Of a stretch of DNA of 64,000 nucleotides, positions 33,878-61,018 are shown piece by piece. The notes below the pieces were generated by a model. That model was not told the DNA's origin and made no database searches. It saw only the letters and a list, made by a program, of their open reading frames with translations. This DNA comes from Niallia sp. FSL W8-0635. Lineage in GTDB: Bacteria > Bacillota > Bacilli > Bacillales > Cytobacillaceae. Location of the stretch: the NCBI RefSeq assembly GCF_038007965.1, contig NZ_JBBOYD010000001.1:3698501-3762500 (forward strand), given 5' to 3'. The translations under genes were made by a program, and so were the position numbers. The stretch's first letter is position 1, and the number at the start of each line of letters is the position of its first letter.

Positions 33878-33989
33878 TAATGTCACCCTTTATATAAATT
33901 ATAGTTCTAAGTAGTTTTCTACTTCCTTTATGTATTATATGGCTTTTTGAAAAAAAATGCATGTTTTCCTGTTAATTTAATGGTGAAGA

Positions 33990-34345
33990 GTAGAATTAGC
34001 TTACTTGCGACTTCCTCACTCTTACTTGCAACTTCCTCTCTCTTACTTGCGACTTCCCCTCTTTTACTTGCGACTCCCTCCTTTGCTTGCGACTTCCTCC
34101 CCCTTACTTGCGACTTCCTCACTCTTACTTGCAACTTCCTCCCTCTTACTTGCGACTTCCCCTCTTTTACTTGCGACTCCCTCCTTTGCTTGCAACTTCC
34201 TCTCTCTTACTTGCAACTTCCTCTCTCTTACTTGCAACTTCCTCTCTCTTACTTGCAACTTTCTCGCTCTTACTTGCGACTTCTCCACCCTTACTTGCTA
34301 CTTCTCCACCCTTACTTGCGACTTTTCCTCTTTTACTTGCACCCC
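33990..34345. repeat. 21-bp minisatellite between prfB and secA
   Basis: About 16 degenerate tandem copies of a 21-base unit of the form CTTACTTGCRACTTCCTCTC. Because 21 is a multiple of three, all frames stay open and give artificial repeats (VASKREE on the minus strand). The unit is pyrimidine-rich on the plus strand, with a C-rich tail to 34400. No spacers, so not CRISPR. A weak hairpin (CTTTTCC / GGGAAGAG, 34445-34462) with AAAAAAA on the plus side may terminate secA. The whole 33878-34480 gap holds no convincing gene. Confidence 0.85.
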
Positions 34346-34480
34346 CCACACTCTTCCCCACGCCCCCCCCACACTCCAACTTCCCTCCCCACCATCAACC
34401 TCCTCCAACCCCCAATCACACCAAACAAAAAAAGCCCACCTCTTCCCAAAAGGAAAAGATAGACTCCTCACTATCATTTA

Positions 34481-37459: not shown

Positions 37460-39471
37460 TTATTCAATTTTCATTGCTTTTTCCTGTGCTTCTACACAAA
37501 GTGCTGCAGCAGTAAACGCATGTTCCTGGGTCATCGCATTTTCTGTTCCATTCAAGCAATCTAAAATAAATGCTCCGAAGAACGGGTAGCCTACTTTTCC
37601 TGATAATTGAAAATGCTTCTCTCCTTCTCCATTCACTAAATACAAATGGTTTCCTTCGTTGCTACGAGCAATATCAATGTATTTACGAACTTCAATATAC
37701 CCTTCTGTTCCTAGAATCGTAACACGTCCATCTCCCCAAGTACCTAGTCCATCTGGCGTAAACCAATCGACACGGAAATAGAAGGTAGCACCATTATCAG
37801 CAACCAATGTCGCATCTCCATAATCCTGAAATTCTGGGTATTGCTTAAAATTATAGTTAGCAACCTTACTATGAAGTACTTTTGCACTCTTAGCATTAGC
37901 ATAATGTAAAAATTGCTCAATTTGGTGACTTCCGATATCTGTAAGAATCCCGCCATATTGCTCTGGGTCAAAAAACCAGTCAGGTCTACTTGCCGCATTG
38001 GCACGATGAGGCCCTGTTCCCATCACGGAAATCACTCGGCCAATCGCGCCTTCTTCAATTAATTGACCAGCAAAAACGGCGCTTTCCACATGCAATCTTT
38101 CACTGTAATAAATGCCCCATTTAAGACCAGTCTCTTCCACCTTTTGTTTTGCTTGTTCAATTTGCTCTAGCGTTGTAAAAGCAGGCTTATCAACAAAATA
38201 GTGCTTTCCAGCATCTAATACACGTAATCCTAACGGTCCACGCTGTACTGGGATATTGGCACTTGCCACAAGATTAATTGTTGAATCTTGGAGAATTTCT
38301 TCTTCCGATGCTGCTACACTTGCTTCTGGATATGCTTCTATAAATTTCTGTACTTTTTCAGGATATAGTGATAGGTAAGCCTTTGAATTTATCGCTAGCT
38401 TTTCCCCCACTTCACACCGTGCATGAGACTTTCACCTCACACGGCGTTCCATCGAAAAATTCCAAAATGAATCATAGACTGATGAAAATTTATGTATAAG
38501 CCGTTAACTTCAACTCTGTCTATTCCCCTAAGTTAATTAGGTAGAATTCAGAACTACAGTATAAGAAATTAGCTTTTTCAATAGTGCATATATAAGTCCT
38601 ATTCAAACGTCTATTCAATCAGCTTTTGAATTTTTCGACTAGAGCCTATCCCTCCACCATTTATTATCATGGTTTCATAGGTACTGTGACTCCACTCTCT
38701 CGAAAGGTAAATCAGTTTTAATAGACTAAAGTAAATCTTTTATATACTGAACTGCTTCTTCGGTTGGTTAATACCTCCACATCCTTCGATTTCCACGTTC
38801 CGATTTCTCTATCCTTCCATATATCCTTAGGTTTCTCCTATGGTCCTGTATGCTTGAACTTGCCTGTAACAAGCTATGGGCTTTCATAACGCCAGATTTT
38901 TACTTACCCACACATACGAATGGCGACTTGCCTGCCATCTACTGCATTTCTACAGCCTTTATGTCTAGAACCGTACATTCGGAGATTCGTCAGTGTATTG
39001 CTACACATTCTAACCATAGATACTTTATGGACTCCCGGCATATAGGATACACCATCTACCGCTAGACAGCTTTCGTGTTGATTATAAGGAAGTAAACGCT
39101 TCCCTTATCAGCTTACGGTATCTCTCTGCCGACTTCACCGAGCTTCATACCATTCTATTTAACCCTAGAATCAGCATGTCGGAGTATCAGAGTAGGCGTT
39201 TCAGAGTGTTACCTCCTCATTCCACCTATCGAGAAATCAGTTCTTTTAGGGGTAAGAAGAAGTCCCTAAAGTCTAACCTTTTCCGTTAGAAACGTGTCAC
39301 ACCTGGGTCATAAACGGCAACTAAACTTCCTCCTGCTTCTACCAAACCATTACACATTCCATAAATATGACCATGATCCAACCCAATCGCAGCAAATCGA
39401 AATTCCCCTTCTGCAACTACTTTGCTTACTTTCCCTTTTGGTGCATAATTCATACCATCATTTTTATTCAT
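37460..39471 (-). CDS. Gfo/Idh/MocA oxidoreductase interrupted by a group II intron
   Basis: Two exons: 39471-39303 (169 bases) and 38364-37460 (905 bases). Removing 39302-38365 joins CCAG to ATCCTGAA and yields VAVYDPDPEKVQKF, the normal second strand of a Gfo/Idh/MocA Rossmann fold, and a 357-residue protein in one frame. Exon 1 has FAAIGLDHGHIYGMCNGLVEAGG. Exon 2 has HYFVDKPAFTTLEQ (the family EKP-type Lys) and TDIGSHQIEQFLHY. Without splicing, exon 1 ends after GVTRF. Ribosome site AGGAGGAGA precedes the ATG. It is the last gene of the glucuronate operon, probably an NAD(P)-linked sugar-acid oxidoreductase; the substrate is unknown. Confidence 0.85.
38365..39302 (-). ncRNA. Group II intron without ORF
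   Basis: 938-nt ribozyme on the minus strand. The 5' end is GTGTGACACG (group II GUGYG). Domain V is at 38414-38449 with arms GCCGTGTGAG and CTCATGCACGG around a GTGAAAGT loop. Domain VI follows (AAGC...GGCTT stem), ending CCTATCACTAT, with the terminal AY expected. There is no reverse transcriptase, so mobility or splicing would need a protein in trans. A possible EBS1 is TGTGGGT near 38917, pairing with ACCCA of the 5' exon. The layout resembles bacterial class B introns, unlike the class C intron at 59131. Confidence 0.85.
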
Positions 39472-59130: not shown

Positions 59131-61018
59131 ATCGAGTAGGAGGGAGTGATTAACTCCCGACCTCTCACACCACCGTACATACGGTCCCGTATACGGCGGT
59201 TCAATAACTTAAGTATCGACGTTCATATAAATAGTTAAGGTCTTTTAGACCCCATTTAATGAGCGTCTTTATTTTAATTGCCGTATGAAGCGTTTCACAG
59301 CCCGAAATCCTCCAATAACCCTTTCGGGTATTAGCTACTTTCAAAGCCTCTTCATGTTTGATGCCTAATCTCCTTAGTTGCGCATAACGTGTTTTGACCT
59401 TTTTCCATCTTTTCCATATAATCTGTCTTAATCGATGATTCAACCATTGTGCAATATCTTTAATAAACCTCTTCATCAAGCTAATCCCATAGTAATTTAT
59501 CCAACCAACAGTCGCTTGGTTAATTGCTTTGGCTATTTCCTCAAACTTACCTGGGCGATTTCGTCTGGTTAGGGATTTTAATTTAACTTTAAATCTCTTT
59601 TTGGCTGCCTGGTGCGGTCTACAACTAACACCTTTAGAAGTAGAGTGTATGCAAAAACCTAGAAATTTCAATTTTGTTGGACTTCCAATTTGGCTCTTAG
59701 TGCTGTTAACCGTCAGTTTCAAATCTTTCTCTAGAAAGTTAGAGATACTTTCTAGTACCCGTTGCCCAGCTCGATTGCTTTTAACATAAACGCAGAAGTC
59801 ATCCGCAAAGCGCACAAACTTGTGTCCACGTTTCTCTAATTCCTTATCTAGTTGATTTAAGTAGACGTTACTCAATATTGGCGAAAGAACGCCGCCTTGA
59901 GGAGCACCAGAATCCGTTGATTTTGTTAGTCCATTTTCAAGGATTCCACTCTTAAGAAATTTCCAAATTAGCTTCAGGACTATATTGTCTTGTATAAATA
60001 CCTTTAGGTATTCCATCAACTTCTGGTGATTTATGGTGTCGAAGTAACTCTTTAAGTCACAGTCTACAACCACTTTATATCCTTGTTCGTAATAGTTGAT
60101 GGATTGCTCAATGGCTTGATGTTGGTTTCTGTTGGGTCTAAATCCATAGCTCATTTCTGAGAAATGAGGGTCGATTATCCCACCGATTACTTGATAGATT
60201 GCTTGTTGGACCATACGATCCCTTACACATGGAATGCCTAACTTACGTTTAGACCCATCTGGTTTGGGAATTTCAACACGTTTAACAGGTAAAGGTTTAT
60301 AAGTGCCATCCTTCAATTTTCTTTTCAATTGTTTGTGGTATTTACTTACATGACCAAAAAGTTCATATACTGTCATCCCATCAATACCGGGTGCACCTTT
60401 ATTTGCCTTGACCTTCTCACATGCTCTAAGTAGATTATTATCATCAATTATTCTGTCAATTAAGTCGATACCATCTTTTCGTCTTGCTTCTTTAAGGACA
60501 GTACTGCACACTTTTGCATACTCTTCAGTTTCCAACTTATCTCTTTGCAAATAGCCATTTTCCAATGCATTCTGTGGTCTTTGCACTGTCTTCACCTCCG
60601 CATTTCTTCAAGATTGTTATTGTTCAGCCCTTCATTCCAAAGGAACTACTATGGCTTCTGCTGACTTCTTACAATTCAGTTTGTCATCACTGACCAACTT
60701 GTTCCTGTGAGATATTCCATCTCTCTTGTCGGGAACCCTTGTAAGACCTCCCCGGGTAAGAGCTATAACCTTCCTCCCATGTAACTGCTATATTTACTGT
60801 ATGGGACTCGTGCAGTATTGGACTTTGTTTTGTTGTGCAAACTCGTCCATCCCAATTCAGCCTTATATATAGTTTCTGTCCGTCAGTTCGGGATTTTGCC
60901 TCCGGCTTCCTTCAGATTCCACCTCACGATGGACACCCTTGCCATTAGCTAACAGTTCCTACTGCCAAGCCTGTAGTGGACTTTCACCACCAAGTTATAG
61001 CCCATGCCGGGCGCACAC
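59131..61018 (-). mobile_element. Group IIC intron with its own maturase
   Basis: About 1,888 bases on the minus strand. The 5' end GTGTGCGCCCGGCATGGG and later segments (GCAAGGGTGTCC, ACCCGGGGAGGTCT, GAAGTCAGCAGAAG) recall the Oceanobacillus iheyensis class C intron. Domain V lies at 59169-59202 (CCGCCGTATAC / GTATGTACGGTGG). Domain VI and the end CTCCTACTCGAT are at 59131-59168. The 5' exon is the U-tract of the Lrp gene's terminator, the usual target of class C introns. The first 430 bases (60587-61018) are ribozyme domains, not a gene gap. Confidence 0.92.
59201..60586 (-). CDS. ltrA: Group II intron reverse transcriptase/maturase
   Basis: 461 residues. RT motifs include PKPDGSKRKLGIPCVRDRMVQQAI, MSYGFRPNRNQHQAIE, VVDCDLKSYFDTINH, GAPQGGVLSPILSNVYLN and the catalytic FVRFADDFCVY. 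The maturase X domain follows (LTRRNRPGKFEEIAKAINQATVGWINYYG), with no C-terminal HNH endonuclease, as in class C proteins. It assists splicing and target-primed insertion. Start GTG 60586 is preferred (GGAGG eight bases before); an earlier GTG overlaps that site. The stop codon touches domain V. Confidence 0.95.
   Translation of the reverse strand: MQRPQNALENGYLQRDKLETEEYAKVCSTVLKEARRKDGIDLIDRIIDDNNLLRACEKVKANKGAPGIDGMTVYELFGHVSKYHKQLKRKLKDGTYKPLPVKRVEIPKPDGSKRKLGIPCVRDRMVQQAIYQVIGGIIDPHFSEMSYGFRPNRNQHQAIEQSINYYEQGYKVVVDCDLKSYFDTINHQKLMEYLKVFIQDNIVLKLIWKFLKSGILENGLTKSTDSGAPQGGVLSPILSNVYLNQLDKELEKRGHKFVRFADDFCVYVKSNRAGQRVLESISNFLEKDLKLTVNSTKSQIGSPTKLKFLGFCIHSTSKGVSCRPHQAAKKRFKVKLKSLTRRNRPGKFEEIAKAINQATVGWINYYGISLMKRFIKDIAQWLNHRLRQIIWKRWKKVKTRYAQLRRLGIKHEEALKVANTRKGYWRISGCETLHTAIKIKTLIKWGLKDLNYLYERRYLSY

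Follow-up and report, generated by a model that had tools for sequence, protein, structure and literature searches.

The closest described system is C.te.I1 of Clostridium tetani, a group II intron that, in the accessible portion of its description, splices in vivo, resides in a genome with no IEP gene and has no close relatives by BLAST (PMC3919590). The excerpted text of a 2015 review describes ORF-less introns of bacteria as rare and says that their host genomes almost always encode related IEPs too, C.te.I1 being the only exception known; it also places bacterial group II introns mostly outside housekeeping genes and takes the low numbers of ORF-less introns to suggest short persistence (PMC4424553). 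In a 2022 survey, again as excerpted, 888 of 13,041 introns were without IEPs (PMC8919778). The lack of an ORF is therefore not in itself novel, and some of the 888 may have RT-free hosts.

The intron described here interrupts an oxidoreductase gene in a 64,000-nt stretch of Niallia sp. FSL W8-0635 (GCF_038007965.1, contig NZ_JBBOYD010000001.1, positions 3,698,501 to 3,762,500), hereafter the window. The genome of the window is denoted G000, and the carriers of the same-site intron are G000, G008, G009 and G012. Like C.te.I1, it is a bacterial group II intron that lacks an ORF and interrupts a coding gene, and in one carrier genome (G008) no IEP gene was detected. In C.te.I1 there are four repeats of domain V/VI, alternative 3′ splice sites are available and the 5′ site is displaced by 8 nt, whereas the oxidoreductase intron has canonical structure and ends. 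For C.te.I1 no close relatives were known and splicing was shown in vivo, whereas the oxidoreductase intron has same-site copies in four genomes and is known from sequence. The ORF-less introns of Thermosynechococcus are also maturase-less and bacterial; there, to follow the review excerpts, related IEPs of the same genome act in trans (PMC4424553), whereas no such gene was found in G008. What sets the oxidoreductase intron apart is that several features coincide: its structure is canonical, the gene that it interrupts encodes a conserved enzyme, four genomes retain it with silent sites close to saturation, and one carrier has no detectable RT. A search by title or abstract, with most subscription journals outside its coverage, found no published report of this intron. 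Within the same coverage, no papers were found on a group II intron in Niallia, nor, by title, on a Bacillus polC intron.

The interrupted oxidoreductase gene and its predicted splice junction

The gene and its insert occupy the following positions of the window:

39303..39471 (-): exon 1 of the oxidoreductase gene, from ATG at 39471 to base 1 of the split Asp codon (sequence; in frame and intact in 4/4 carriers)
38365..39302 (-): ORF-less group II intron, 938 nt, GTGTGAC...CACTAT (Rfam; same-site copies)
37460..38364 (-): exon 2 of the oxidoreductase gene plus stop codon (Gfo/Idh/MocA domains; best solved structure 2p2s, E 3e-108)

Exon 1 (39471-39303, 169 nt) and exon 2 (38364-37463, 902 nt) together make 357 codons. 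As the original prediction had described, naive ORF calling yields instead a 61-aa frame at 39286-39471 (-) and a separate 316-aa frame with a GTG start at 37460-38410 (-). This GTG (38410) is misleading, as it sits within domain VI of the intron. A second oxidoreductase gene and the mannonate dehydratase gene uxuA lie 5′ of the interrupted gene on the same strand, and the interrupted gene is likely the last gene of an operon. The gene had been called conserved and was placed among essential frames. The former agrees with its wide occurrence in Bacillales; the latter does not hold for the genus, because only 5 of the 13 genus genomes sampled have a close homologue (exon match at E 1e-60 or better). 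Four of these five carry the intron at the same base, and the fifth, G001, is intron-free.

Removal of the intron joins GAC-CCA-G/AT, that is, DP|D. For comparison, the named genomes were scanned with the downstream exon and the best 80 loci were kept; two (L028 and L029), in which the intron is present, were set aside, leaving 78 intron-free homologues among those best loci. The 21 codons preceding the site were open in all 78, the junction residue was D in 76 (N and E in one each) and the two residues ahead of the junction were DP in 66. When both intron ends were shifted equally by -6 to +6 (n=13), D was restored only at shift 0. The intron-free genome G001 reads YDPDAQK at this site. The exact in-frame join of 357 codons that had been predicted is thus borne out, and the intact homologues, a mismatch of which had been named as grounds for rejecting it, agree with the join in 76 of 78 cases. 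A displaced 5′ splice site, as in C.te.I1, was considered and rejected: the other equal shifts lose D, and a 2-nt shift of one end breaks the frame.

Anatomy and conservation of the intron

The covariance-model search that had been suggested gave two matches above the Rfam gathering threshold, to RF02004 (D1-D4-5) at 39245-39024 (-), with 170.1 bits and E 1.9e-38, and to RF00029 (D5/D6) at 38449-38365 (-), with 58.2 bits and E 7.7e-9. Each spans the full length of its model, and the matches are therefore beyond chance. With these matches and the ends as predicted, the insert was confirmed as an ORF-less group II intron. The group II end rule GUGYG / AY is followed in all four same-site copies (GUGUG or GUGCG, and AU). 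Introns of the RF02004 type are presumably class B bacterial group II introns. Helices obtained by RNAalifold from the four copies fall into six domains in order, the domains being our own assignment:

38794..39296 (-): domain I, own assignment of consensus helices (Rfam RF02004 match, RNAalifold)
38700..38789 (-): domain II, own assignment (RNAalifold, four copies)
38640..38694 (-): domain III, own assignment; 1/55 sites differ between G000 and G008 (RNAalifold, four copies)
38451..38639 (-): domain IV, own assignment; conserved basal stem and variable, ORF-less distal part (RNAalifold, tblastn)
38414..38447 (-): domain V, with a CGC triad at 38446-38444; 1/34 sites differ between G000 and G008 (RF00029 alignment)
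38367..38411 (-): domain VI, with an unpaired A at 38372 (Rfam, RNAalifold)

The unpaired A38372, the eighth base from the 3′ end, is the likely branch point. Domain IV is the usual site of the maturase ORF in group II introns; tblastn with 23 RT ORFs at E 0.01 gave no match to an IEP or relic within this intron. The CGC triad of domain V is one of the two types, AGC or CGC, given for group II introns in the accessible part of a further study (PMC12350094).

For the EBS/IBS pairing, each of 19 introns was scanned for stretches of at least 6 bases in which 330 bases of the intron are complementary to the final 16 bases of the exon, and the six best of each were kept. A candidate EBS1 was picked by eye: the GGGUUA loop of G000 and G009 could base-pair with the exon bases UGACCC at -8 to -3, with 2 nt remaining before the splice site. 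In the scan, which had no chance control, longer chance-like stretches outrank this candidate, and it is absent from the six-best list. The C271 and radC introns (see below) do not fit this pairing, and in G008 a change in the loop introduces a mismatch. A CAUAAA/UUUAUG complementarity at -12 to -7 appears in the six-best lists of G000 and G009 only, likewise with no chance control.

Seven related introns were compared for conservation of the RNA structure. For D5/D6, 100% of 133 alignment cells are paired as modelled, and 6/19 pairs show change at both positions. For D1, pairing holds in 93.0% of 370 cells; 15/53 pairs show change at both positions, and one modelled pair is never formed. For D5/D6 and D1 alike, four of five covariation measures exceeded all 500 shuffles; the fifth, further pair types, was reached by 13/500 shuffles for D5/D6 and by 83/500 for D1. 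Among the 221 pairs predicted by RNAalifold for the four same-site copies, 10 have changes on both sides and five have one broken cell.

Exon selection and maturase content of the carriers

The same-site introns measure 938 nt in G000, 858 nt in G009 and 801 nt in both G008 and G012; their ends are identical and the length difference lies mostly in domain IV. No stop or frameshift was found in exon 1 or exon 2 of the four carriers. NG86 values are quoted because YN00 returned no value for 5/6 exon-1 pairs. For the four wide pairs, in which one of G000 and G009 is compared with one of G008 and G012, dN was 0.04-0.07 and dS 1.0-1.4 in each exon. The exon changes between G000 and G008 comprise 135.5 synonymous and 46.5 nonsynonymous, against a random expectation of 23% synonymous, and those between G008 and G012 comprise 13 and 3, respectively (p 1e-6). 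Exon 1 alone is uninformative for the latter pair (0 synonymous, 1 nonsynonymous); in the five wider pairs it shows 11-23 synonymous versus 3-7.5 nonsynonymous changes.

By these substitution counts, both exons are under purifying selection, which should not be expected in a gene cut by a non-splicing insert. We infer that the intron almost certainly splices in the cell, and a splicing-only group II intron very probably suffices as the whole explanation of the locus. The original prediction had spoken of living, trans-assisted splicing. Its first half is well supported by the same-site copies in four genomes, the selected exons and the RNA covariation; trans assistance as a requirement fits poorly with G008, in which no RT was detectable.

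The leading alternative is that splicing needs the maturase of another intron in the cell, so that the intron is retained only in hosts that supply one. Such dependence is stated as the rule for bacterial ORF-less introns in the review excerpts (PMC4424553), and the contents of two carriers would allow it. G000 gave 7 RVT_1 matches and is thus not an RT-free host of the C.te.I1 kind. With an IEP profile (A4) built from 7 RT ORFs of RF02004-type introns, chosen from those fetched, G000 gave two nearly full-length matches (980 and 422 bits), both on contig C2, which encodes a 606-aa maturase, and G009 gave six (786-1038 bits). Trans help is therefore possibly available in G000. The G000 IEPs are not close to the intron's own kin, however: the maturase relics in the recJ intron of G009, the nearest relative found, are 38% identical to them.

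The other two carriers weigh against a required helper. G008 is a single contig rated 100% complete, and four kinds of search detected no RT in it; in this assembly there were 0 RVT_1, 0 GIIM and 0 IEP-profile matches at E up to 1. Its one domain V match and one domain I match both belong to the oxidoreductase intron (150/271 and 92/151 first-look candidates scored). G012 has one RT only, located between domain I and domain V of another Rfam intron type (RF02001, RF01998). These two RT-poor carriers count as one lineage rather than two because their exon 2 dS is 0.07. As far as the assemblies go, a trans maturase appears not to be needed in the G008/G012 lineage, and we favour, with some reserve, splicing there without a group II maturase, either alone or with general host RNA proteins. 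A required maturase elsewhere in the cell is accordingly the less probable reading, if still a serious one.

A helper plasmid missing from the G008 assembly is possible, as are helper IEPs on Niallia plasmids. In a plasmid search, 368 records matched the intron, none over 80% of it, and four of them, with partial matches, were from Niallia; among phages, 12 records matched, again none over 80%. A PADLOC scan of two RTs gave nothing informative. Among 111 family genomes, 44 had RF02004 matches and three of those (G007, G008 and G019) were without RVT_1, the RVT_1 status of the 44 having been compared with the list by eye. G007 and G019 were not counted as further RT-free cases: both have C-terminal maturase scraps, and a brief look showed no interrupted gene.

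Related introns and the proposed history

The nearest relative found is an intron in recJ (named by NCBIfam) of G009 (L157, contig C273). It is 2309 nt long, of the RF02004 type (D1-D4-5), 83% identical to the oxidoreductase intron over the first 685 bases, and joins exactly in frame (GDYDA|DGVTS). From -12 to +2, its target shares 11/14 bases with the oxidoreductase site of G000 and 10/14 with that of G008, with no chance control. A related intron with a maturase, which had been proposed as something to look for, was therefore found in part: the relationship holds, but the maturase ORF is broken into three pieces, with profile positions 174-314 (part of the RT) missing.

A tree of 16 introns unites the four oxidoreductase copies (92/96) and places the recJ and C271 introns next to them (94/96, drawn open); of its 13 inner branches, one reaches the double threshold of the program, and five are drawn open. 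Within the group, G000 pairs with G009 and G008 with G012, as the exons do.

This pairing bears on a second alternative, repeated homing into the same site in each lineage, in which the low divergence of the intron would reflect recent arrival. Group II introns home to intron-free alleles, and domain I differs between G000 and G008 at only 59/493 sites although exon dS is >1. The divergence is uneven, however. Three loops differ at 7/11, 12/20 and 8/12 sites and distal domain IV is barely alignable, whereas domains III and V are nearly unchanged (see the domain list); this pattern is, on the alignment, one of constraint and not of youth. Since the intron also has no ORF for mobility and its tree pairing agrees with the exons, repeated homing is improbable.

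Conditional splicing that gates expression of the enzyme is very doubtful: a position at the end of what is probably an operon merely allows it, and a constitutive intron accounts for all the sequence data. A dead intron in a pseudogene, or separate use of the two ORFs, is scarcely credible, for although naive calling gives two ORFs and the gene is absent from 8/13 genus genomes at E 1e-60, the exons are intact in all carriers, exon 1 has an excess of synonymous changes in the five wider pairs and the RNA structure is conserved.

For the preferred reading, a splicing-only intron, the following history is proposed. An RF02004-type retroelement would have entered the gene after base 1 of an aspartate codon, movement between recJ-like sites being the likely route, as the nearest relative has a similar target. 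The maturase ORF of domain IV would then have been lost, while selection continued to maintain the ribozyme and exons as at least four genomes diverged. The transcribed RNA would fold into a six-domain ribozyme and splice at GUGYG/AU to give one 357-codon mRNA; in the G008/G012 lineage this would be done by the ribozyme alone or with general host RNA proteins. In its fullest form, on which we are evenly divided, the Niallia circulans lineage would hold a solitary, vertically inherited intron that splices maturase-free from a selected mRNA, a bacterial counterpart of splicing-only organellar introns. On that same reading, the open, frameshifted, scrap and lost maturase ORFs found in the genus would represent intermediate stages.

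The ORF-less intron has apparently outlasted near-saturation of the silent sites of its exons, with one carrier in which no helper gene was detected. It may thus offer a testable system for the passage from a mobile intron to a host-dependent, splicing-only one, a step proposed toward organellar and spliceosomal introns, and could reveal whether host factors take over from the maturase and which ones do so. Gene calling splits intron-bearing genes, polC among them.

RF02004-type introns interrupt polC in six genus genomes (L230, L226, L227, L231, L232 and L233), all with the join VPDIDL|NFSGEYQP. That of G000 (L230) lies on contig C1 near 1953439-1954859 and joins in frame. The polC introns are 757-2676 nt long and form a tree branch separate from the oxidoreductase intron. 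Their maturase ORFs range from an open 607-aa RT frame in G010 through broken frames in G004 and scraps in G000 and G009 to the absence of any match (G003, G005). Because PolC is an essential protein of Bacillus subtilis, the polC introns, that of G000 included, ought to splice. A group II intron is reportedly present in another Bacillales housekeeping gene, recA of Geobacillus kaustophilus. In G029 (L229, contig C16), radC is interrupted by an 845-nt RF02004-type intron with the join HNH|PSGD, in which no RT relic was detected.

Four further RF02004-type introns (L171, L174, L175 and L190 near base 1450) contain long RT frames and lie 3′ of a DEYQD motif. Of these interrupted genes the 5′ exons were read, and the upstream exon of L171 matches the pcrA model. 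Three RF02004 and three RF00029 matches lie within about 4 kb on one strand of G064 (L237, contig C16, 3900000-3909000), and perhaps represent tandem or nested introns.

Within the window, short repeats at 33930-34480, LLLATS-like in translation, are open in several frames on both strands and adjoin an ORF resembling secA (named by eye). At 59131-60933 (-) lies a further group II intron with a 468-aa RT frame; it belongs to a different Rfam type (RF02001, RF01998 and RF00029).
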